Origin: Heterostelium album PN500
Taxonomy: Eukaryota; Evosea; Eumycetozoa; Acytosteliales; Acytosteliaceae
Direction: 5' to 3'
Assembly (NCBI RefSeq): GCF_000004825.1
Contig: NW_008805085.1
Location: forward strand, 1,054,001 to 1,118,000
DNA length: 64,000 bases
Position 1 is the first letter of the stretch. Each line of letters opens with the position of its first letter. Shown here in pieces: positions 27,884 to 63,754 of the stretch. The translations under genes and the position numbers were made by a program. A model generated the notes under the pieces. That model was not told the DNA's origin. It searched no databases and was given only the letters and a program-made list of their open reading frames with translations.

Positions 27884-30526
27884 ATGTCAGGTATGTAATA
27901 ATTAATTTTTTGGTTAATAATCTTTTTATTTTATTAGTTAACTAATTTTTATTTTGATTATTTTAACTTAGTCATTAGTTTTGGAGTTGGAAAACAAGGA
28001 CAATTAGGATTGGATGTAAATAAAGATCAACTGGATCCAGCTGTAATTCAATTGCTAAAGGGAAAGAGAATTAAACAGATTGCATGTGGTGAAGCACATT
28101 CACTGGCTGTCACAGAGTTTGGCGATGTATATAGTTGGGGACGTGGAAAGGAAGGTGAGCTTGGCCACCCACAGAAAGCAATGACTGCACCACCTGCTCT
28201 GATAAAAGCACTGGAACACGAGAGAATCGTCAAGGTTGCCTGTGGAAACTATCACTCGCTGGCGCTAACCGACACTGGAAAAGTATATCAGTGGGGACAA
28301 CTCCACGAGATCGATGCTACCAAGAGTGGTGTCAAGAGTCAGGGTGGTCTGGTAGAGATGACCGGTATCAAAAGTTTTGCCAGTAAGGTTGCTGACCACT
28401 CGTTGTCAATGTACTTGAACGGTGAGAAGGCAGCCTATGATGAGGAGTCCGCTTCGAGTAGTGTCCTACAAGATAATCCTACTGCCAATGGGCTGGTCAC
28501 CGACGATCAGGAGGAAGAAGAAGAGTTCTTACCGGAAGCGATTGTCGACACGCAACAAGAGCAACAGCCAGAGAAGAGTGGCAGTAAAGTAGGTGAGATC
28601 GTAGATAAGAATCAAATGACACCAGTACTTGTTGATTTCGGATCAAAGAGTATAAAGATTGTAGATATCAGTGCGGGTTGGGCATACAGTGCAGCAGTCA
28701 CATCAACCGGAAATGTATATACTTGGGGATTCAACGAGAAAGGACAGCTTGGCTTGGGTGATCGTTGGTATCATGGAAATCCAAGAGTGATTCGATCGCT
28801 ATCAAATAAATCTATTGTAAATATTGCATGTGGTCGTCAGCATATGGCGGCAATCAGCAAATCCGGTGATCTTTACACTTGGGGACTGGGTGTCTTTGGT
28901 CAACTCGGTCACGGTAAACTAAAGTCACTGCTTCACCCAAAGAAAGTGCTCTATTTCGAACAACAACAAAAGAAGATTGTACAGGTCGCAACCGGTGCCA
29001 ATTTCACTATGGCAGTATCAGAGAATGGTGAGTTGTTCTCTTTTGGTCATGGAGAGTACGGACAGCTTGGTGCCACTGAAGACACACAATATATGGATTG
29101 GAACAACAATGGTGACCGTGATGACCATTTGAAATATTCACTGCCAAAACAAGTGAAAGCTTTGGAGAGTGTAAAAGTAAGAAAAGTTGCATGTGGACAT
29201 CTCCATACCATTGCAGTGACCACCGATAATGATGTATATACTTGGGGATGGGGATCGTCAGGATGTCTGGGATTCGGTGACAGAAAGTTCCAGCTGGTTC
29301 CACAACGTGTGCCATCACTCTCTGGCGAGGAAATATCATCGGTCAGTGGAGGTGAGAAACACACGCTCATTGTCAGATCGTCGGATACCACCACTTTTGC
29401 TTTTGACTACAAACAGCTTGTCAACGACCAAAAGACTGGTGATATTGCATTCCTCGTTCAAAACAAATATGTATATGCACACAAACTGTTCATTCGTTCT
29501 CGTTGTCCAAAGTTGTATGGATCCATCTTGTTTAGCGATAGATTCTGTAAGAACAAGTTGGAGTACATCGATGAAGACGGACACATGGAGCAAGAAGGTG
29601 CTGTCAAGAAGGCAGTCGTCGAGATTGCAAAAGTTAAATACCAGATTTGGGTTTCATTTATGACCTACCTCTATACCGATCATCTTGTCATTGCTCCGCA
29701 TCTTAGAAAGGAGTTGTCTGATGTTGCAGCGGCCTGGGGTGTCAGTCGTCTGGTTAGTTTGTGTCACCGTTACAACTACAAGTTGCGTTTGACCGACAAG
29801 ATTCCACCATCGTCATTCAGTACCGACATCACAGAGCACATCGACAGCTTTGATTTCTCTGACATTCACTTTGAGGTTGCCAACAAAGAGTTTATTCCTT
29901 CACACAAATTGATTCTTGGTGCACGTAACCACTACTTCAAAACAATGTTTGAATGTGGATTCCGTGAGAAGGATCAGCTGAACTTCAACATTGGCAATGA
30001 TATCGAGAAGGAATCATTCAAGCTGATGATCGAGTATATCTATGGAAACAACGAAGCAGTCGTAAATCAAGAGAATGCTGTCGAACTTCTTTGTTTATCC
30101 GATCGATTCATGGTCGAAGATCTAAAGTTGGTCGCCGAAAGCTTCTTGGAGAGCATGGTTCGCGAGAGCATTCAACCAATCTTGACAACCATCAAACCAT
30201 CATCGCCAATCCAGAAAGATCAAGGCAATTCCTCCGAACAAACATCACCAGACAGCGCCAAAGAGAATATATCGGAAGACGCCATCATTTCCTTTGAAAA
30301 TATCTGTCTGCTACTCCAGGTCTCTGACAAATTCTTGGCCAAGAGATTAAAGCGATTCTGCATGGAAACCATTGCTCATCTAATTTCTACCAAGCAAATG
30401 ACATTCTTTTTCGATATTTTGAAAAAAGTTAGATACGAATCACCTCAACTCATCAGAGAGCTTGACCATTTCGCATCACTCAACACGACACTCAGCGCGA
30501 ATCAATTAATTTCACTCATCAGATAA
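27884..30526 (+). CDS. RCC1-repeat protein with two BTB domains
   Basis: 853 residues from a 7-base first exon (27884-27890, ATGTCAG) and one long exon (27972-30526). The first join gives MSVISFGVGKQGQLGLD, so RCC1 repeats begin immediately. Repeats run to about residue 465 with the usual signatures: IACGEAHSLAVTE, YSWGRGKEGELGHP, YTWGFNEKGQLGLG, YTWGLGVFGQLGHG, YTWGWGSSGCLGFG. They form a beta-propeller. A first BTB/POZ domain follows (GDIAFLVQNKYVYAHKLFIR) and a second (FSDIHFEVANKEFIPSHKLI). A glutamate-rich insertion breaks the propeller near residues 155-200. Related RCC1-BTB proteins act as cullin-3 adaptors or GTPase regulators; which applies here is unknown. The lack of introns in a 2.5-kb exon is normal for dictyostelids. 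Confidence 0.92.
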
Positions 30527-44540: not shown

Positions 44541-45684
44541 TTATTTCTTATTATACATTATATCTGCTAATTGTGTTATCTTTTGTTTAAATTCATTTAA
44601 TACTTGATCCTATATTTATTATAACAAAGTAAAGATAAAAGATAAATGTTAGTTTTGTATAATAGAATAGAATAGAATTCATTGAGTTGATGTGATGTGA
44701 TGTGATGTGATTAATAATTACAGCAGTAGGTGGCATATCAGTATTTCTATTTCTTGTATATCTCGTCCAGAATGTCACTTGAAAGAGATAGGAATGATAG
44801 AAGCTACTGAATTCTTCACTGAAAGAGACGTCAAGACCTTCGTTCATGAGGTCATGCAAGAGTAGTTCTCTGTTCCTCAGATTACTCACGAATGAATAAA
44901 ACTCTTCGGTTCCACTCGATGTCGATTTGAATTGAATGATCTCTGTTTGTTTACCTTGTTCTGCCGCGCGGAACAATGTCTCAATGATATGATCTTTGAT
45001 GCGTTGTAGTGTGTCGCCAAGCTGCGTGCGTGTTCTATGTAGCGACACCTTGAATAGCCGTTCACCAAGCGTTGCCATTGGATCATCCAACAACAGACCA
45101 GTACTACTTGATAAGTGAATTATTCCATTTGTCGTATTATTATTATTATTATTACTATTATTACTATTATTATTATTATTGTTATTAGTCGTCGTCGTGT
45201 TGATATAGTAATTACTATATCTTGTGGTTATTATTGGTAGTTGAAAGTAATCTATCTCCTTTTGGAGTTGTCGCCAGTTGTAGCCGATTGGTGGTTCGAT
45301 CGATTCGCCGCCCGTTCTGTAGAAATCGAGTATCGATTCGAACAGGCTCGACGATCGATCAAAGAAGAACTCGCCATTCTCATCGGGACACAGCAGATGT
45401 CGGTTTCGCTCACTGAACATCACACCGAGCAGCGAAGTAGGATACACGCTAAACGTTGATTTATAGGTCTCGAATCGTCGACCACCAACATTCAAAACAA
45501 CTCTATCTCCACTGACACTAACATTGTTGTTGTTGTTCACTTTCTTTCCAACAACATCTGCATCATAATGATCATTATTATTACTACCGCCGCTATTATT
45601 ATTATTATTTTCATCATTTTTTTTATTACAATTATTACAATCTATATTATTACATTCTATTATATTATTATTATTATTATTCAT
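44541..45684 (-). CDS. BTB/T1-domain protein, BTBD10/KCTD20-like
   Basis: Two exons on the minus strand, 45684-44722 and 44609-44541, joined in phase 0; 343 residues. The N-terminal 58 residues are Asn-rich. The T1-type BTB domain (about 59-155) reads RVVLNVGGRRFETYKSTFS, then LLGVMFSERNRHLLCPDENG, then FFFDRSSSLFESILDFYRTG and LQKEIDYFQLP. This VVLNVGG/LLG/FDR order is that of KCTD and BTBD10 proteins, with no channel segments. A second conserved region (about 205-300) includes TLQRIKDHIIETLFRAAEQG and YSFVSNLRNRELLLHDLM. These resemble the C-terminal half of BTBD10/KCTD20, regulators of Akt dephosphorylation in animals. Function in this organism is inferred only. The short second exon ends TQLADIMYNKK. 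Confidence 0.8.
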
Positions 45685-46368: not shown

Positions 46369-49300
46369 ATGCAGTCAAACAACAACAACAACAACAACAA
46401 TAACAAGAATTCTAAAAGTAGTAATAGTGGTAATACTAATAATAATAATAACAATAGTAAAAACAACAGACAACAACATCAATATAGTAGTAGTTTTGGT
46501 TCTACTAAACCAATTGATATAAGAAATGCAAACAACAACAATATATTAGGAAGTGGCAGTAGTCATAGTAGTAGTAGTAGCAGCAGTGGTGGTGGTAGTG
46601 GTGTAAGGAGATTAAGTTCTTCACAACCCATTAATATACCTATAATGGGAAGTAGTGGTCATAGTAGTTATCATAGTAGTATATCACCAAGAACAAACAT
46701 CAACAATAGCAATAACAACAATAATAATAATAACAACTTTCTTAGAAGTTCAACATCACCTTCACCTTCGACATCACCAAACTCTCTGTTTTTCAAGCCG
46801 TCACCACCCACTATCTTGTTGAGACCTTCACCACCACCCAGTGCATTCCGTCCACCTTCACCATCGTCCAGCTTTCTCCGACCGCTCAGTCCACTCTCTT
46901 CGTCACCGGCATCCGCTTCACCCTCGCCCAGAGGCGGAACTTCACCGTTCCTAGTGCCGTCGTCGCCACACAGCTTCAACAGCGGCAACAACAACAGCAT
47001 GAATATGATGTTCAACAAGGTACCACCAAAACAATACTCCTATACATCGTCATCTGGCAAAACAACTACGATATCACCATCTAGCAGTGTCGGTAGTCTT
47101 GGCAGTGGAAGTGGCAGTGGCAGTGGAAGTAGCTATGGAAATAGCTATGGAAGTAGTAGTGGTGGATTTGGAAGTTTTGGACGTACAACTTCTTCTTCTT
47201 CTTCTGCTACGAACCAACCTACTAGAGCAACAGTCTCATCTGCTATAAAGAAAGAGATTGGTTTCAATGTTGTATCAAAGCAACCTGACACTACAAAAAA
47301 ACCAACAACATCTTCATCAACTACAACAACGACGACTACAACAACAACATCTAAATCATCGTCATCTTCATCTTCGTCGTCGTCGTCATCATCATCTAAA
47401 TCTAAACCTACAGTGAATCAACAACAACAACTGATAAAAACGAAACAAGAGAATGAAGATGATGAAATGGATATGCCTGATTATGATGAGGAATTTGGTG
47501 AGGTTGCAGATGAGGAGGAATATCAGGATATGAAGACAATCGACAAGTTTGAGGAGGAGCTATATCGTGAGTTGTCACCGACGATCGATACAGAAGACGA
47601 TAGACCGATATCGTCGACTTCCACTACTGATACAACAACAACAACCACTACTGATACAAATAGCAACAACAACAATGACAATAACAGTGGCGGTGGTGTG
47701 AGGAAGAGATCTGCAGAGAAAGAAAAGGAATGGTATGTCGATATTGCAACAGTGACACCAGAGAAGATCAAACAAATGGTTTTGGAAGGATGGGTAAAGA
47801 ATGAACCTAGATTGCATCAAGTCGATACCAACTATAAGATAATACTGGATCTACATGAACGTTATAAAAAAGATAAAGAAAAAGAATCAAAGGAGAAAGA
47901 TAGAGAATTAAAGGAGAAAGAAACATCAGTAGCATCATCACCATCACAATCATCATCAACAACTCATAGATCACCAATTTCATCACCAAAATCAACAACA
48001 CACAGATCACCTATTTCATCACCAATAAAATCACCAAGACAACAATCAACTACGACTACAACAACGACAACATCATCTTCTTCATCAACAACACCAAGTA
48101 AAAATGTAAATAGTAATAATAATAATGATATAGATACAATCGCAGCAGAACAAACACATAAAGATGTAAAAAACTATTTGATACAACATGCTGCTGGCTC
48201 TGGTAAATCTTTGACGATAGCGTCGTTGGTGTTCAATTTATATAGGTTGCGAGATGGCGAAGATAAACCACTGTTTGATTTGATTCTGATTTTGAACGAT
48301 CGATTGCATTTGGATACACAGCTGGGTGGCGTGGTCACTGGATTTCTCAAAAAGAATAGCTGCAAGTCCTACTGCCAGGTCAACATGGCCAAGAACTTGT
48401 CGTCGACCATCAACAACGGCAAGACACGTGTTGTCATTACCACCATGCAAAAGTTTGTCAATGTCATTGAGGACACTTCGACATCGCAGTTTGACTTGGC
48501 TGCTTTCAAAGCGAAAAAGATTGCACTGATCAGTGATGAAGCGCATCGCACCCACGGAAAGACAATCACGAGGAATATCCACAAGCTACTCACTGGCGAC
48601 ACTCGTCAGAATTCGAATATCACCTACTTTTGCTTCACTTGTACGCCTACACCTCGGTGTCTGGAGATGTTTGGCGAGCATCGTGGAAACACTCGCGTTC
48701 CTTTCTACTGCTACTCGTTGGAGCGGGCTCTCTCCGATGGACTGGTGATCAACGTCATCGAGAACTACACAACCGTCGCCATACTCACAAAGATCACAAG
48801 CAAACAGGGAGCGAGTAGCCAACTGGAGGTAGTCGATGAGAAGCGCGCATCCTACCACTTGATGACCAACGCCAAGAACGACAAGCGTATTCTCACTGAG
48901 AAGTCAGCGTATATCATTAAACACTTTGTAAAGATCCGCGAGATGATCAACAACGATCAGTTCAAAGCGAGAGCGATGCTGGTGACCAGCACACGTAGTC
49001 AGATTCTCCTGTACAAATCGATTCTCGAACGAATGGTAAAAGCGTTGCCAAAGGAGCAGCGATTCGACATCATCGCTTCGTTCTCGCCATTCATTGTCGC
49101 CAAGAAGATCAAGGATGAATCGAGTCGCACAGTCAACGGAAAGTACGCGCACTACTGCAAGGAGCGCGACGGAATCTCGCAGATCCTAAAGAACGACAAG
49201 AAACACAAGATTCAACTGATTATCGTTGCCGACAAGCTGCAGACTGGCTTTGACGAGCCGAGTCTCTCTGTGATGTATATAGACAAACCACTGAAGGGCT

Positions 49301-51591
49301 CGAACGCCGTGCAAACCATTGGACGTCTCAGTCGTATCGCACCCGGAAAAACGGCGAGCTACGTCGTTGACTTTGTAAATACACGTGAGGATATCTCTGA
49401 TTCCTATGGTAGCTACTGGCGTGAGACCGTACTGAAGGGAGCAACTAAACAGACGTTCAACGAGCTGCGTCTCTCCAAAGTACTGAGGAAACTCAATTCG
49501 ATCGAACCAATCTCCAAAGGCAATCTCCAAGAGTCGATCGACTACATCATTCAGGACGATGAACAGCGTCGAAAGGAGAAACGCTCCGGTAGTATCGTTG
49601 ACGATCTAACTACATTCCTGGATCTTTGTAATCAGTTGCAATGGGACAACAATTCATCACCGCTTTCCTTCAAATTTGCTTTCTATTTACGCGATTCCGT
49701 ACTTCTGAAACGTAACCAACAGAATATTCAAATTAAAAAGTTAAAAGGGTAAATGTTATTCCATTAAGTTGAATACAACAACAACTTAACCAATAATATC
49801 ATCTAACAATTTGTTGTTCTTTCAAAATATTCAGATATTTGTTGAGTGTAGAAAATCAAGCAATCAACTATGGAGAAACCACTGGAAAATTGGATATACC
49901 AAATGATTCAGTTTTGAAAACAAGCAACAAAACAGGAAGAGTAAGAAGAAGAAGAAGAAGATGTTATTATAATTTCATCAACTTTATGTATTAGTGTCAG
50001 TTACCATATTAACATATTTTTTTATAATTAGTCTAATTTGAATAGGAGTTTGACAACTACCAATCAGATTATTCAGAATCTAAATAAAGCGGAAGCTTTT
50101 AGAGTTGCCAATATATTGGCTGACAATCCGACTATTAGCAGCAATCCAAAGGAAGATACAATGGATTTGGATGCCGATGGTTTGGAGTTTGCTCGTCAGA
50201 TTTGGTCGTCGAATCCGGCAATCAAGCTGCACAAACGTTTCTTGACCGACGACTATGACGATGGAAGTGGAGCGAGCGGTGGCGGCTCACTCAATCCGAA
50301 AGCTTTGGAATCCGATACGATCGATCAATCCATGGATTTGATGGTTGATTTCGTAGTGAGAAATGGTCCTGCTTTTGAAAATCTGGTACACAGTCAATCG
50401 TTGGTCACTGTCTTTACATTCTTGGATCCGGCAAATCCCTCACACAAGATCTACAAGGAGAAACTAAACATTGCACTCAAGAAACAGAATCAACAAAGCA
50501 ACGAACATCACCCACTGCCCCAGCCAACAACTGTTGTTTCACAATCACCAAAGACCTCCGGTGTATTTATGTTGACATCATCCGCTGGATTCCTAACGAC
50601 ACCATCTACCTCAGCACTTCAAAATCAACCAAATCAACAGCAGCAACAGCAACAACAACAACAACAACTACCACCAGCAAATGTTCATCACCAGCAACCA
50701 GCTCAACTTCAACTGACATCAAGCGGCAGCACAGATATAGTCATGTCAGACTCCTCCAGCTCCGTTGGAAGTAAATCAACTAATCAAGCATCGTCCGCTT
50801 TGCTACAGAGCATGGAGATTCCACTGCCTGTCAATCTTCCTACGGTCGCGCCAGAGCTGATAGTTGGTAAGCCGCATTCCGCTGGCAGAGGTGATTGTCT
50901 GTTGGGTGATTGCATCCTTTCGTTCTGTCACGATCTCGAGTCAAAGGATCCGGGCATGCGTGTCTTTGCAATTCAAACACTCCAAAAGATGTCTGCCGAG
51001 GGTATCCACAAGAACACGATACATGAGGCAGTCGGATCGATCAACAAGATTCTCTTCAACAAATTCGAAGTGTCCAGCACCAAGATGATTGCTCTCGACC
51101 TGCTTGCCACCATTGCCTACAACGACGAGCCAACCATCCTCCAGATCCTGGAGCACAATTTGATTGGCACCGTCATCAAGCTGATTTGCACCAACGAAGA
51201 AGCGATCAAAGCGAAATGCTGCAAGTTCCTCACGACCATGTCGAAGGAAGTATCTATCGTGTCGTCGCTACACGAGAACCAAGGTATTCCAGCAATCGTA
51301 TCGCTACTCGATAGCTACGATTACTTTGTAACGGAGAATGCACTTCGCTTGCTCACCGCTCTCTCCACTGAGGAGCGTTCGATCAAGTCGATCCGGCCAC
51401 TGATCGATCCCACCATGTGGAGCAGACTCGAACACCACAAGATACCGAGCATCCAAGAGTTGACCGCTCAAATCAAGCTTCTAATCTCTGGATCGAAGCG
51501 AACTCACCAGCAGTTCCAACCTCTCATTTCCAACACCAAGCGAATCAGATCATCCAGTCAACAAACACCTGTATTGACCAAATCAAACTAG
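46369..51591 (+). CDS. HsdR-like superfamily 2 helicase fused to armadillo-like repeats
   Basis: 1681 residues in three exons (46369-49748, 49835-49940, 50032-51591), phases closing. Residues 1-450 are Asn/Ser/Pro low complexity. The core (about 455-1010) matches the motor of bacterial type I restriction R subunits (HsdR). A Q-motif-like RLHQVD lies at about 481. After a 110-residue low-complexity insert comes Walker A, NYLIQHAAGSGKSLTIAS (about 600-617). Motif II is LISDEAHRTHG (about 721). Later motifs are ADKLQTGFDEPSLSVMYI (about 954) and NAVQTIGRLSRIAPGKTASY, followed by VVDFVNTREDISDSYGSYW. No PD-(D/E)xK nuclease domain is visible before the motor. The C-terminus (about 1440-1655) has helical armadillo-like repeats, for example AIQTLQKMSAEGIHKNTI and ENALRLLTALSTEERSIK. 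Nuclear or cytosolic role unknown; ancient transfer from bacteria is inferred. Confidence 0.85.
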
Positions 51592-51986: not shown

Positions 51987-52669
51987 TTAACCTTTTCCCT
52001 TTTTTGAATACTTTGATTTCTTCTTTCCTGACTTTTTCTTTCTTAACTCTTCGATAATCAATGAAGTAGGTTGTTGTTCTATTTTTATATATTTGTTAGT
52101 TGTTTGTTTGTTAGTAAGTTAGTTAGTTAGTTAACAATAACAATAACAATAATATTAACATACTCTTTTCAATAGAGTTTACTAATGACTCTAAACTTGG
52201 TGGTTGTACTTCTGGTGCGTTAAGCTGTTGGAGGAATGACAAGTAGGTCTTTGATGTCTCGACAGTGTTATTGTGTTTATTGTTTGCCGGTCTAGCTACA
52301 CTCAGGTAGTAGATGACTTTTTCGAGAGTCGATCGCTCTTCGACACCTCTACTATTTACAAAAGGTCGACCATCCATATAATCGATGAAAGCATCAACAC
52401 TCGACTTGTTAATCTTAACATAACATCTAGTAGCTACATTCTCTTTTGGACTATATAAATAAATGATAAAATGTAAACAACATTTTATTAATTTGTTTTG
52501 CGCGCTTTGTTAATAATATTATTAATGAATAACGTAATTACCCTGCAAAACCTTGTGTGTACTCAACTATTTGCACTTGTTCTTGAGTGAATGATTGTGT
52601 GATCAACGATTGCAACTTTATTTCCTCCAAGTTATAAGGAAGATTTCTTATTACATAGATATCAGCCAT
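51987..52669 (-). CDS. upf3: UPF3/Smg-4 nonsense-mediated decay factor, short form
   Basis: Three exons on the minus strand (52669-52542, 52450-52164, 52078-51987) give 168 residues. Nearly the whole protein is one Smg4/UPF3 RRM-like domain: IYVIRNLPYNLEEIKLQSLI as the first strand and helix, TRCYVKINKSSVDAFIDYMD as the central strand and helix, and GRPFVNSRGVEERSTLEKVI as the 'VD.kG' part. It is followed by YLSFLQQLNAPEVQPPSLES and a Lys-rich tail (ELRKKKSGKKKSKYSKKGKG). In the family this domain binds UPF2 in mRNA surveillance. The long C-terminal region with the exon-junction-complex-binding motif of animal UPF3B is absent. Start is the only ATG before the domain. Family assignment is good though divergent. 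Confidence 0.78.
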
Positions 52670-53578
52670 AATATTACTTTAAATATATATACAAAAATTA
52701 AAATAACTAAACCCGATTCTTATGATATTAATATCTAATTATAATGGACAACAAAAGAATTATTTTCTCAGCTGATTTACCAATTTATTTTTTCTTTTTT
52801 TTCTTTTTCATTGTTTTTTTTTAAAAAAAAAAGAAAAGTGTAGAAAAATGAATGAATGAACTAAAATCTCAAAAGTAAGTCAATAACTTATAACAGATGA
52901 TAAGTTTGATCAAAAGAATGATTCTTATTTGTAATAATATTTGTTGTTATCAAACTTTGATTGTTACCAACAACAATAAAATAAGGGTCATTCATTGAAA
53001 ATAACTTCAAATCAAAACCATTTTTTTTAAAAAAAAACAACAAAAATATCAAATTAAAATAAAATTTACCCCGATTGTGTGGGTCAACTCAAAAAGATAC
53101 ACCCACTCATTTTTTTTTTGACAATTTTACTTTCATTTGGTGTAAATACAAATTAGTCATCTTAAAGTTTTTTTCTGCTAATTAGATAATAATACAATTA
53201 TTGTATTTTAGTCATTTAAGTATTAGTTATAATAGTTGTATTTTTATCATTATATTCTAAAATACATACCATATCATATATACACCTTATAAAATATATA
53301 GTTTTATTTATTTATTTATTTATTTATTCTTGTAAATTAGTAATAACAATATTATCATCATTTTCAATTTCAATCTGCAAAAAAATAAAAAATAAAAACG
53401 CACCCTATCTGGCTCATAAAACAATCAAACACACACACACAACTAAACAACCAACCAACACTAACACACAATCAGGTCAGGTCAAACAAGTCAAAAACAA
53501 AAAATAATCAAATCTGTCATATAAATATCATAATCAATCAATCATTATAACAAAACAAATCTGTCAACAACAACAACA
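52670..53578. other. Divergent intergenic region
   Basis: A+T-rich DNA between the UPF3 and SET-MYND gene starts. It has (TTTA)n near 53308-53328 and a C/A-rich stretch at 53400-53480 with AGGTCAGGTCA. The immediate 5' flank of the SET-MYND gene is CAA-rich. No gene seen. Confidence 0.5.
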
Positions 53579-54919
53579 ATGTCTACAACAGCATCAGCAT
53601 CAGCATCACCAACAAAGACAGCAACAACAGCAACAACAACACCTCCACTACCTACACCAACCAAAAAGAAGGTAGACTACAAAACATGGCACGGTGATTA
53701 CAATATAAAGGTGATGTCGCATCCGATCAACGGTCGTTACATTGTCGCTACTAACGATATGGAGGAGAGCACCGTCATTCTGCATGATCTGCCCTATGTG
53801 TGGGCGGTCGACACCACCGCTAAGAACTTTGTGTGCCAGCAGTGCTTCCTCGAGGTGCCACTCACCTCGCAGCAGAGCGAAGACGAACCCGAATACTTTG
53901 TGATGTGCGAGCGTTGCAACTACGTCGGCTACTGCTCCGACGAGTGTCGCCAGCTCGACGCACTCCAACACAACCTGGAATGCGCCATCTTTGAGCACTT
54001 TGATACCAACGAGTACACCGACTCACTCATCTCCGAAGTCAAGCTGCTCGTGCGTACACTCTCCCGCAAATGGCTGGAACTATCGCTCAACGAACAAGAC
54101 TCTCCCTATTCCAAATACAAAGTGAAAACAGCCATACCCCAAGAGAATGGATTGAGATATCGTGATTATGAACAATTAGTTTCCAACATGTAAGTTAGTT
54201 AGTTATTACAATTGTTTGATAATAATGAGTGAATGATATTATTCAAATTGTTAACAATAATAATTGACATTAATTTGACACATTAATTTTTTTTATCATT
54301 TTCCAGAAATTCATTTTGTCCAACACTAAAAGAGAGTTTGTTACATTGGATTTGCAATAAGGTTATGATATTGGCAAAGCGATACACCGGTAGAAAAGAA
54401 GATGAAATCGATCTGCTCAATGTTATCTTGAGAAATCGGTGCAATGCATTCTACATTCAGGGACGTCCAAAGGCTGGTGGCAATGGAGAGTCGCGCGGCT
54501 GCGGTGTCTACGTGAGAAATTCGTTTTTCAATCACAATTGTAATCCCAATGTCAACTACTGGGTGGTCGACAACACCCTGGAGGTCGAGTGTTCACTGAT
54601 GAGAGCGGTCAAGGCCGACGAAGAGCTGTGCATCAGTTACATCGACACATCGGCGCCACTCAAGGTGCGAAGAGATAAACTGTCAGAGGGATACCTATTC
54701 CACTGCCGTTGTGAAAAGTGTCTTGAAGATGAGGCATTAGATACCAATACTACCAATACTGAAGACACACCAGTATCACTTGTAAAATCGACTGAGGAAA
54801 ATCAATCACAAACAACACAATCACAAATATCACAATCATCGCAATCACAATCACAGTCACAGACATCATCGTCAGAATCACAAATCAACGCAACACCCGA
54901 TACTGTGATAACTGATTGA
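53579..54919 (+). CDS. SET and MYND domain protein
   Basis: Putative lysine methyltransferase of the SMYD type. Two exons, 53579-54189 and 54307-54919; 407 residues. The SET domain is split by a MYND zinc finger. The first SET part includes INGRYIVATNDMEESTVILH (about 43-62). The zinc finger (about 80-135) has FVCQQCFLEVPL, then MCERCNYVGYCSDECRQLDA and HNLEC, giving the usual Cys/His set. The second SET part includes GVYVRNSFFNHNCNPNVNYW, which holds the NHxCxPN SAM-binding signature, and EELCISYIDTSAPLKVRRDKL with the catalytic Tyr. The post-SET zinc cluster is FHCRCEKCLED. The C-terminal 50 residues are Gln/Ser/Thr-rich. Dictyostelids have many such proteins. The target is unknown. Confidence 0.93.
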
Positions 54920-59774: not shown

Positions 59775-61273
59775 ATGATTTCAAATGTTGCAAATAAGTA
59801 AGTTTTTTATATTGAAATTGTATAATTAAAACTTTTTTTAAATATGTTTCATTTTTTAATTTTCTAATTTTTTGTTAGAATTTCAAAGGTTTTCAGAGGA
59901 ACTATTATTCATTCATTGGAGATAAACAATGTTGAGATATTACAGAATGCTGCATTGGGTGTCGGTGAGAGTGGATCGATTGTTTTCCTCAAGAGAGACG
60001 TCGCCGATGACCAAGTGTTTGGTGAGATTGCAAAGGAATATTCATTCACAGACTCGCAGGTCGTCAATCTTGGCAAGAAGTTCTTGATTCCAGGATTCAT
60101 CGATACTCATGCACACGCACCACAATACCACAATGCCGGTACCGGTACTGACTTGCCACTACTGAAATGGCTCGAGAAATACACATTCCCAGTGGAATCG
60201 AAATTCCGTGAACTCAAGTTTGCCCGTGATGTCTACACCAAGGTAGTCGATCGTATGTTGAAAAACGGTACAACCACATGTTGTTACTTTGCCACCATTC
60301 ATTTGGATGCAACTCTGTTGCTGGCCGACATTGTCGGAGAGCGTGGACAGCGTGCATTCATCGGAAAGGTTTGTATGGACCGTAATTCACCGGACCACTA
60401 CGTAGAAACCACCGAACAATCGATCCAATCCACCAAACAATACATCGAAGAACTAAATAAACGTGGAAATCCATTGGTCCAGCCAATTATCACACCAAGA
60501 TTCGCTCCAACTTGCACCGACCACCTCCTTAAGGAACTTGGTGTCATCGCCAAAGATAAAGGAACAATGATTCAATCACATATCTCTGAGAATATAGATG
60601 AAGTTGCTTGGGTTAAATCAATTTTTCCAGAATTGAAATCATATACCGATGTATGTTGAAACCTAGCCGAGCAAAACAAAACAAACAAATGAGTTCATTA
60701 ACTAACTGTCCAAACATTTTTTTTTAGGTCTATAAACATTTTGATTTGTTAAATAAGAAAACAATTATGGCTCATGCAATTCACTTGAGCGATGAGGAGT
60801 TGGATACATTTGAAAAGTGTGAAGCTGGTATTTCACATTGTCCAGTGTCAAACTTTACTTTGGGTAGCGGTGCAATGGACGTTAGAAAAGTGTTGCGAAA
60901 GAATATTAAACTTGGTTTGGGTACTGATATCAGTGGTGGATACAGCAGCAGCATTCTCACTGTTATCAAAGACTCTTTGAAATGTTCAAACTCGATCTTC
61001 TTCCACGATAAGTCACACACTCCACTTAGCTACGAGGAAGCATTCTACCTTGCAACCGTCGGTGGTAGCAAGGTAGTTGAGCTGTCCGATCGTATAGGAA
61101 ACTTCTTGCCCGGCAAGGAATTCGACGCACAAGTCATCGATCCATTCTCTGCCAACTCACCATTCGATGTCTTTGAAGCCGACACCACTCACGATATCTT
61201 CCAAAAGTTTATTTTCAATGGTGATGATCGTAATGTAGACAGTGTATATGTCAAAGGAAGAAAAGTTATCTAA
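59775..61273 (+). CDS. gda: Guanine deaminase
   Basis: Zinc amidohydrolase converting guanine to xanthine and ammonia in purine catabolism, cytosolic. Three exons (59775-59797, 59879-60650, 60728-61273) give 446 residues, the family's usual length. Metal-binding His pair is in LIPGFIDTHAHAPQYHNAG. The HISE motif (MIQSHISENIDEVAWV) and a later His in TIMAHAIHLSDEEL supply further ligands, and the essential Asp lies in GLGTDISGGYSSSIL. The ring-binding RFAPTC (ITPRFAPTCTDHLL) is that of guanine deaminases rather than of chlorohydrolases. The 23-base first exon codes MISNVAN. Its join to KISKVFRGTIIHS is in phase. No peroxisomal or secretion signal is evident. Confidence 0.95.
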
Positions 61274-61793: not shown

Positions 61794-63253
61794 TTATAGT
61801 TGATACAATGTGCTTGCGCATTCCGATCGATCAGACTGATCATCTTGGAGAATCTTTTCCCATGTACCATTTTCAATAGAGAACATAAAATTTCTATCTT
61901 TTCCTCGGAGTGAATAAATATAGCTTTGGCCATCTATTGAAAGATAGATCAAACTGTGGTTGGAATCTGTTTTGGTTTTACTGTTGTCAAATATTTTGAT
62001 CTCATAGGTTTCGATATTGATTCGATGTAATCCTAATTCTGATTGAACATATATGTTGCCATTGCCGTCGGTACATACTCCTCTCGATGTGTATTTTGGT
62101 ACTCCAATTGGTAGGTCAATTGTTGATTTGTTGTTTATGTCAAATTTTAAAATCTTTTGGATCGCTGGTGTGAAGACATAGATAAAGTCTTTGAAGAAGA
62201 ATGTGAAATGATGGCAAGTTGCATCGAGATTGATTGTTGAATATTTCTCGAATGTTGAACTGTTTATGTTGTACCTGTAGATACTTGCTTTTGGTGAATT
62301 ATATCGATCGAACAAATAGATATGATCATGGCCATCGTAGCAAGCTGATACAAAAGAACATTTATCAATGCCTTTCATTTCATTAGTTTCTAATGATTTA
62401 TTGCCTATAGAATATTTTGTAAAATTATTATGTTTCGTTTTCAAACCACCAAACATGTAGATAAAGTCACCAACATTGACGCCAGAATTGTATGGAAATG
62501 TGTTCGTCATTTCTATATTTTGTTTCTCGAAATGAATGTTTTTTATATCTGAAATATTAATAATGGATATTTTACCATTTGTATCAGTTGATAATATATA
62601 TGATTGTCTGTTTTGATTGAATAGTTTCAATTTAATTGATGATTGAATTTGATTCTTGATGAGATTGATTTGCGCTTTGCTTACAATAAATTGATACTGT
62701 TGTGGTTTTGGTTGTTGATCGTATTCACTAACACTATTCAACTTGAGTATACTGTTGTGCTCGAGTAATATATTTAAAATGGAATGATCATCATTGTTTA
62801 ACTTGTTGGTGCCATCCATATAAAACACAGTATTTTTGTTGTTTTGAATGAATTCATTGTGATTTGATGATTGTGAAATCGATGTTATTATTGTTGATAT
62901 TTGATAACTCTCCGTTGTATCTGGTGATATCGATAGAGAAGATGATTGTGAATCGGATTGATCTATATTATCCTTTGGTTGGATGCTTGTGATTCGATTA
63001 TTGATAGAATTCAAAGATTTCATGACCATGATTTGTTTATCTATTTGTTGTTCGAGCTGTGCTTTGCCACTGACGATTGGCACCTTTAGCTTGTGTTCTT
63101 CGACAACAAGGAAATCATGTAAATCTTTGAATTTGTTTGATATTTCATTCTCGGTTTGTTGTAATTGTTGATACTCCTTTACTTTTGATTTCAAAGCATC
63201 GAATGTTGACTGAATACTTGCTTGAACTCTTAATCCTGATAAGATATTATTAC

Positions 63254-63284
<31 letters not shown>

Positions 63285-63464
63285 TGTGGTACTGGTCGTA
63301 TCTACAGTAACTCTATTGATATTTGATTTAATATTATCAATATGATCGAATGAGTGGCGTGAGTGTTGTGGTGCACAAGCAGGACACATTAAAACATTAC
63401 AATCATAACAAATGAAATCAGTACTTCTATTATGACTTCCACAAAAATTATTATTAATATTCAT
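61794..63464 (-). CDS. B-box zinc-finger protein with kelch-like C-terminal repeats
   Basis: A single exon on the minus strand; 556 residues. The N-terminus has a B-box: FCGSHNRSTDFICYDCNVLM then CPACAPQHSRHSFDHI, giving the Cys/His order C-x2-H-x8-C-x2-C...C-x2-C...H-x4-H. A coiled coil follows (about 85-170, with KSKVKEYQQLQQTENEIS and LEQQIDKQIMVMKSLNSI). The C-terminal 300 residues contain repeated strands such as GDFIYMFGG, GHDHIYLFDRYNSPKASIYR, FKDFIYVFTP and GNGNIYVQSELGLHRINI, which look like a kelch/propeller type. B-box-coiled-coil-propeller proteins form a large dictyostelid family; cell role unknown. The neighbouring partial gene is a close tandem paralogue. Confidence 0.82.
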
Positions 63465-63754
63465 ATTTAACTGTTAATAAATTTAATTTAAAAATGTTTT
63501 GAACAAATCGGGCATTTATTTTTTTGAGCATGAGTAGAATTTCTTGTTTCCCTCTTCACTCTATTTTTTTTGAACTAAAAATTACAAAAAAATAAATTAA
63601 TAATTATTTAATGATTATTTAAAATAGAAATTAATTAATATGAACTTCAAAATCGATAGCAGATCACACATGAGTTTAGAGAAATAATTTGTAAAATCCA
63701 ATATTTTTTTTATTTAAAATAGTTGATTATATTTAATTTAGGAAGCAATATTAA
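63465..63754. other. Short spacer between tandem B-box genes
   Basis: About 290 bases between the start of the complete B-box gene and the stop of the next copy, both on the minus strand. A+T-rich and without other features. It should carry the promoter of the complete gene and the 3' end of the next one. Confidence 0.5.

Follow-up and report, generated by a model that had tools for sequence, protein, structure and literature searches.

Gene A lies at positions 46369-51591 of a 64 000-nucleotide stretch of DNA from Heterostelium album PN500 (contig NW_008805085.1, positions 1,054,001 to 1,118,000; the whole stretch is referred to as the window) and raises the question of how a motor resembling that of HsdR, the R subunit of type I restriction enzymes, came to reside in a gene of a social amoeba and what it might do there. 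Restriction-modification enzymes are, to our knowledge, usually viewed as prokaryotic. An earlier note, made from the letters of the window, had proposed a horizontally acquired and domesticated HsdR-type motor with a C-terminal armadillo arm. Our reading, to which we assign a probability of about one half, is that A encodes an anciently acquired, nuclease-free HsdR-type translocase of double-stranded DNA (dsDNA) that acts in the nucleus and is directed to sites of transcription or splicing. Features of A are given below in window coordinates and all lie on the forward strand.

The HsdR-type motor of A

The model of gene A joins three exons (46369-49748, 49835-49940 and 50032-51591) across two GT-AG introns and translates into 1681 residues. 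The superfamily 2 (SF2) motor core (residues 593-1020; 48145..49428) was delimited with a custom hidden Markov model (HMM), the NCBIfam hsdR profile and an AlphaFold2 model. The five peptides quoted in the earlier note are present, in order, in a single frame of exon 1, and the best match of the profile search is hsdR, as the proposal of an HsdR-type motor had implied (E = 5.5e-45 for residues 589-1019, covering only model positions 256-671 of 674). The score of A (154) is below the whole-protein cut-off of 284.55, as is that of the plasmid-borne bacterial R subunit P0001 (204.9). A also matches five PADLOC type I models, and the Pfam matches of exon 1 comprise SWI2_SNF2 (2.2e-22), ResIII (4.7e-14), T1R_D3-like (3.3e-13) and DEAD (4.8e-09). 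Motor, nuclease and tail HMMs were built from the R subunits of 68 of the 80 genome loci described in the last section and were tried on A, its paralog B and four plasmid R subunits, with E-values referring to this six-sequence search; the motor HMM matches all six proteins, A with 291 bits (stretches 593-746 and 746-1020) and B with 266 bits. Judged from the sequence, the match of A to the hsdR profile is not a chance one, and its motor belongs by profile to the HsdR family and not to a familiar eukaryotic helicase family. Eukaryotic remodellers of the SNF2 type would resemble A in having a dsDNA-translocating SF2 motor within a large protein; however, the SNF2 N and C profiles have no match in A (Pfam, exon 1, E up to 1), and the only match of this kind, PF18766 (SWI2_SNF2), is also obtained with the bacterial R subunits P0001 and P0003.

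The motor motifs follow one another as in HsdR. Walker A (YLIQHAAGSGKS) is located at 48175..48210 and motif II (DEAH) at 48535..48546, with Asp723, Glu724, Ala725 and His726 being the same in A, B and all 48 bacterial rows of the conservation alignment (48 of 96 usable references were taken; row L025 was dropped for lacking Walker A by regular expression). Motif III (48637..48651) reads TCTPT, compared with TATPK in bacteria, and these changes are common to A and B. The block of motifs V and VI (QTGFDEP ... QTIGRLSR; 49240..49335), covered by the T1R_D3-like match, retains both arginines. Of 62 columns that are invariant across the bacterial rows, 45 are retained in A and 50 in B; those kept by both proteins include the Walker A lysine, DEAH, Q-T-G and D-P of motif V and Q-T-R-L-R of motif VI, again with both arginines. 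Ahead of Walker A, PRLHQ (47806..47820) is the counterpart of bacterial PRYHQ, and its Pro480, Arg481 and Gln484 are shared by 48/48 bacterial rows. It is split from Walker A by a Ser/Thr-rich insert of ∼90 residues (about 500-592; 47866..48144), such that the two motifs are 123 residues apart from start to start in A compared with 24 in most bacterial proteins. Low complexity of this kind is unusual within a motor core; in the predicted structure, residues 530-598 have values below 50 in the predicted local distance difference test (pLDDT), and the part before residue 523 is modelled as a helix.

The AlphaFold2 model of residues 455-1126, predicted with 49 aligned sequences, has a mean pLDDT of 71 and a predicted template-modelling score of 0.68, with values mostly of 70-95 and a few low loops in the motor core. 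Chains of EcoR124I HsdR rank first when the motor model is compared using Foldseek (E = 2.2e-17), and on the Foldseek matches VIA-align gives 23.4 for RIG-I, 23.3 for RadD, 22.3 for FANCM and 21.8 for HsdR. We therefore do not take the predicted fold as proof of HsdR identity, since VIA-align scores RIG-I, RadD and FANCM at least as high as HsdR, and membership of the HsdR family is argued from sequence. There, the PDB entries matching A at E up to 0.1 are EcoR124I HsdR (2.3e-08) and RadD (6.9e-05), a bacterial DNA-repair SF2 protein that is less similar to A than is HsdR. The likeness to RadD and FANCM might be thought to mark A as a repair or replication translocase of their type that remodels forks or joint molecules; these structural ties are, however, common to many SF2 enzymes and no repair domain was reported by Pfam, and we regard this role as improbable.

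Absent restriction parts and the paralog B

A shares with HsdR (for example EcoR124I, or the subfamily with YLIQHSAGSGKS, as on plasmid pSRC6) the SF2 motor, the order of its motifs and the hsdR and T1R_D3-like profiles, but differs in what surrounds them: introns, low-complexity regions, inserts and Surp and armadillo (ARM)-like modules are present, whereas the nuclease and the tail that docks on HsdM were not detected. The nuclease HMM has no match in A and only weak, sub-threshold stretches in B (whole-protein E of 0.044); the tail HMM likewise fails to match A and reaches B with weak stretches only (best i-E of 0.015, whole-protein E of 6). All four plasmid R subunits match both, at 9.7e-95 or better for the nuclease and 6.6e-73 or better for the tail. 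The HSDR_N profile, which represents the N-terminal PD-(D/E)XK nuclease, has no match in A or in an exon-by-exon search of the genome (32.9 Mb in 39 contigs) and was positive in P0001 and P0003, both of the bacterial proteins scanned, and in 9/14 control genomes. In bacteria the C-terminal helical tail of HsdR docks on HsdM; the N6_Mtase and Methylase_S profiles, representing HsdM and HsdS, have no match in the exon-by-exon genome search and were positive in 9/14 and 13/14 controls, respectively.

A motor that has lost its nuclease could still work, since nuclease mutations in type I enzymes can stop cleavage and leave translocation unaffected, as described in a passage of PMC3874165. The motor stems from a defence enzyme, and A could accordingly be imagined as a translocase that senses or processes foreign DNA of bacterial or viral origin. 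A phagotrophic host meets much bacterial DNA, and this general consideration also speaks for a defence role. Because nuclease, methylase and specificity parts were found neither in A nor in the genome, however, the marking of self and non-self and the cutting of type I systems look lost; nor do the identified neighbour genes point to defence, and this explanation also appears improbable to us. Neither defence nor repair gains specific support from the analysis.

The hsdR and T1R_D3-like profiles find only a single locus besides A in the genome. This paralog, B (L016:3254-6403, contig C3), is an HsdR-type motor gene of five modelled exons encoding 937 residues. In two aligned blocks, the motors of A and B are 51% and 47% identical, and B has neither the long N-terminus nor the Surp and ARM modules of A. 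A Gln/Gly/Asp-rich insert lies between the two motor halves of B. Six changes (S608A, T643N, A758C, K761T, T764C and N988S) at positions that are at least 95% conserved in the 48 bacterial rows are shared by A and B. Intron 1 of A (49749..49834, with its donor at 49749; 86 nucleotides, 24% GC) and intron 3 of B are both in phase 2 and lie at an equal distance from the VDFVN motif (126.67 residues as calculated by script; 383 nucleotides from the first base of the motif). We read them as one ancestral intron, an argument that rests on spacing and phase since the flanking stretches are not significantly similar (of 2000 shuffles, 239 were as good after the intron and 400 before it). The agreement supports the gene model of A and a single acquisition ahead of the duplication, and implies that the intron was gained before the duplication; the shared residue changes point in the same direction. 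Likeness beyond the motor is not significant either, with 310 of 2000 shuffles as good for the QFQP C-termini and 136 for the DAD..FA..W motif that follows the motor.

The same intron bears on whether A might be two genes, or a modelling error, with the motor ending at a stop in intron 1 and the Surp and ARM-like part forming a separate gene. A stop codon directly follows the donor site (GGG TAA), exon 2 (49835..49940; 106 nucleotides, 32% GC) contains no recognised domain, and the model rests on genomic DNA and was picked for its canonical sites, 44 GT-AG combinations keeping an open frame in the ranges tried. Against such a division, intron 1 is matched in B by spacing and phase and the modelled downstream exons of B extend the protein; exons 1 and 3 of A are only 283 nucleotides apart and exon 3 has its first ATG 129 nucleotides from its start. 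We consider two separate genes to be very improbable. Intron 2 (49941..50031) has 91 nucleotides with 22% GC and is in phase 0.

Surp and armadillo-like modules and a proposed function

Exon 3 (50032..51591) encodes a linker, a Surp module, a Gln/Ser-rich linker, ARM/HEAT-like helices and a basic C-terminus. The Surp module (residues 1263-1308; 50332..50469), which sits between the motor and the armadillo-like helices, matches PF01805 with an E-value of 7.8e-08 and 32.7 bits against a cut-off of 21.1; its nearest PDB sequence is the Surp domain of SF3A1 (2dt6, phmmer E of 2.8e-05), and the genome has five places with Surp, including that of A. The helical repeats that follow (50971..51372, extent approximate) are less clear. 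The best PDB match of the region is the engineered protein OR497, which we take to be an armadillo design (total E of 2.6e-11 across overlapping repeats; 0.036 for the best single stretch), and the named armadillo entry 4d4e matches at 0.0025. Pfam Arm and ARM_PUB (9.8e-07) both remain below their cut-offs, and a model of exon 3 made without an alignment is helical and poor, with a mean pLDDT of 42.5. For the armadillo arm of the earlier note, the matches are weaker than had been claimed. A genome search with exon 3 gave no match elsewhere (E up to 0.01). Close to the C-terminus, KRTHQQFQPLISNTKR (51496..51543) resembles by pattern a bipartite nuclear localization signal, and B ends in a similar basic stretch, the likeness being within the non-significant C-termini (310/2000 shuffles) noted above. 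The Surp module, the paralog, the undetectable nuclease, tail and partners and the Ser/Thr-rich insert after PRLHQ had all been overlooked by the earlier note.

The Surp module points to RNA-processing partners at least as much as to defence or repair. Surp-containing proteins of the SF3A1, SFSWAP and SR140 types share this module with A; they lack a helicase motor and contain RRM, G-patch or CID parts, which are not reported by Pfam in exons 1 and 3 of A (E up to 1). In mammals, Surp domains bind splicing factor SF1, according to the abstract of PMC4666396. A nuclear translocase at transcription or splicing sites is favoured because translocation survives loss of the nuclease and because Surp domains bind SF1, as far as these two sources describe. 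Its first rival is a ribonucleoprotein (RNP) remodeller, in which the motor would have switched to RNA or RNP and would work with splicing factors through Surp, similar to SUGP1 and DHX15 but in one chain. The score of the Surp module above its cut-off, its proximity to SF3A1 and the reported binding of SF1 all suit such a remodeller, as do the predicted structural ties of the motor to SF2 enzymes of the dsRNA type and the presence of SUGP1, a Surp/G-patch protein, in one complex with the helicase DHX15 (according to the abstract of PMC10760632). The nearest sequence family is nevertheless one of dsDNA translocases, B has the same motor without Surp, and the G-patch, RRM and CID search of exons 1 and 3 was negative; we regard an RNP remodeller as unlikely.

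The nuclear dsDNA translocase that we prefer would have arisen from one prokaryotic or phage R-subunit gene that entered the lineage long ago. Before the duplication into A and B, at least one intron would have been gained and the PD-(D/E)XK nuclease and HsdM-docking tail, both undetectable in the two copies, would presumably have been lost, if they were ever present; A would later have gained the Surp and ARM-like modules, or B would have lost them. The two RecA-like domains may have retained the ability to hydrolyse ATP and to pump duplex DNA, as type I enzymes do, without cutting it, while the Surp module and the ARM-like arm would replace HsdM and HsdS in recognition and the long N-terminal low-complexity region would act as a flexible tether. 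Brought to chromatin or to sites of nascent transcripts, the translocase could strip or remodel protein or R-loop obstacles on DNA. Still more tentatively, and with some doubt on our part, A and B may be the founders of a eukaryotic family, so far undescribed, of nuclease-free translocases derived from HsdR, with A a Surp-steered nuclear machine that couples the pumping of duplex DNA to transcription or splicing. Two diverged eukaryotic genes with introns have thus preserved the motor half of a type I enzyme and its ATPase motifs, and the halves for cutting and recognition are undetectable. This points to a defence motor of bacterial origin put to new use in the nucleus and makes A and B a natural experiment on how a long-range DNA translocase can acquire new targets, in a social amoeba in which the function of A is directly testable.

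Relatives, neighbourhood and composition

In support of the earlier note's HsdR-type reading, the relatives found for the motor are R-subunit-like genes, mostly beside HsdM-like and HsdS-like genes: among the best 80 of 584 genome relatives, which are spread over many phyla and are all 28-34% identical to A, 56 show both HsdM-like and HsdS-like matches within the retrieved stretch. The best plasmid relative, the R subunit on the Selenomonas plasmid pSRC6, is 30% identical over 93% of the 527-residue query; in three of four plasmid stretches inspected, the R gene has methylase and S genes next to it, and in one it does not. A RhuM-family gene lies between hsdS and hsdR on pSRC6 (L017:3945-4949). 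The viral collection gave no close relative when scanned with A alone; when scanned with an alignment, 153 of 176 candidate stretches proved to be relatives, of which the best 80 were retained. A close viral donor was considered and set aside: HsdM-like and HsdS-like matches occur in 67 of these 80 loci, which thus resemble M-S-R systems carried by phages or prophages, and no nearer donor emerged.

Phylogenies were calculated as a quick tree of 52 of 91 rows, without the four eukaryotic helicases of this genome as an outgroup, and as a careful tree of 36 of 91 rows, of which 28 were sampled randomly from 79 genome rows. Both trees place A and B as sisters, with support of 100/99 in the 36-row tree and 99 by the Shimodaira-Hasegawa-like approximate likelihood-ratio test in the 52-row tree. 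Their common stem is long and lies outside a supported group of the bacterial subfamily (31 rows in the 52-row tree, 23 in the 36-row tree), and their exact placement is unsure because this stem meets other long branches. The comparison with bacterial HsdR proposed earlier joins A and B with full support and names no donor, no bacterial group being their nearest kin in either tree. A recent or specific donor is rejected given the spread and uniform 28-34% identity of the best 80 relatives; domestication is plausible in view of the undetectable nuclease and tail and of the added eukaryotic modules. Acquisition from prokaryotes before A and B split is the simplest account of the sequences. An older and wider eukaryotic presence of HsdR-type motors is possible, the comparison set consisting of the plasmid, viral and genome collections and this genome. 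No dictyostelid HsdR or A-like protein is named among the titles and abstract openings listed from open-access literature, and the words 'restriction' and 'helicase' are absent from the main text of the Acanthamoeba genome paper PMC4053784. A may already bear an automatic label in eukaryote annotation databases.

Eukaryotic genes flank both loci, and so neither A nor B looks like bacterial contamination; the claim that the motor belongs to an intron-containing gene amid eukaryotic genes is thereby upheld. B is flanked by Myb-like and aspartyl-protease genes. A has a BTB gene upstream (BTB_2, 44593-45684) and a UPF3-like gene just downstream (Smg4/UPF3-family match at 52126-52377, 25.5 bits with a cut-off of 24), both on the opposite strand; the latter match is probably an exon of a nonsense-mediated-decay factor gene. 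The AT-rich spacers, the runs of Asn, Gln and Ser and the size of the surrounding genome fit a dictyostelid. Exon 1 of A (46369..49748) encodes, in order, a Ser/Asn/Thr/Pro-rich low-complexity N-terminus (residues 1-455; 46369..47733, assigned by composition, with no nuclease domain or HSDR_N match detected), the PRLHQ motif, the low-complexity insert, the motor and a short helical part. Exon 3 and the motor-coding portion of exon 1 both have a GC content of 46-47%. The GC content at third codon positions is 57.8% for the motor of A and 53.1% for exon 2 of B, compared with 18.8-46.2% for seven further coding stretches in the window. We dropped foreign codon usage as a sign of recent arrival and conclude nothing about arrival from these values, because the eukaryotic Surp/ARM exon of A is likewise high (49.8%).

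Elsewhere in the window, RCC1-like repeats and two BTB stretches share a single long open frame at 27938-30523 on the forward strand. A MYND zinc-finger match (53534-54190) and an amidohydrolase match (59868-60656) lie on the same strand, and a B-box/Kelch open frame occupies 61797-63473 on the reverse strand.

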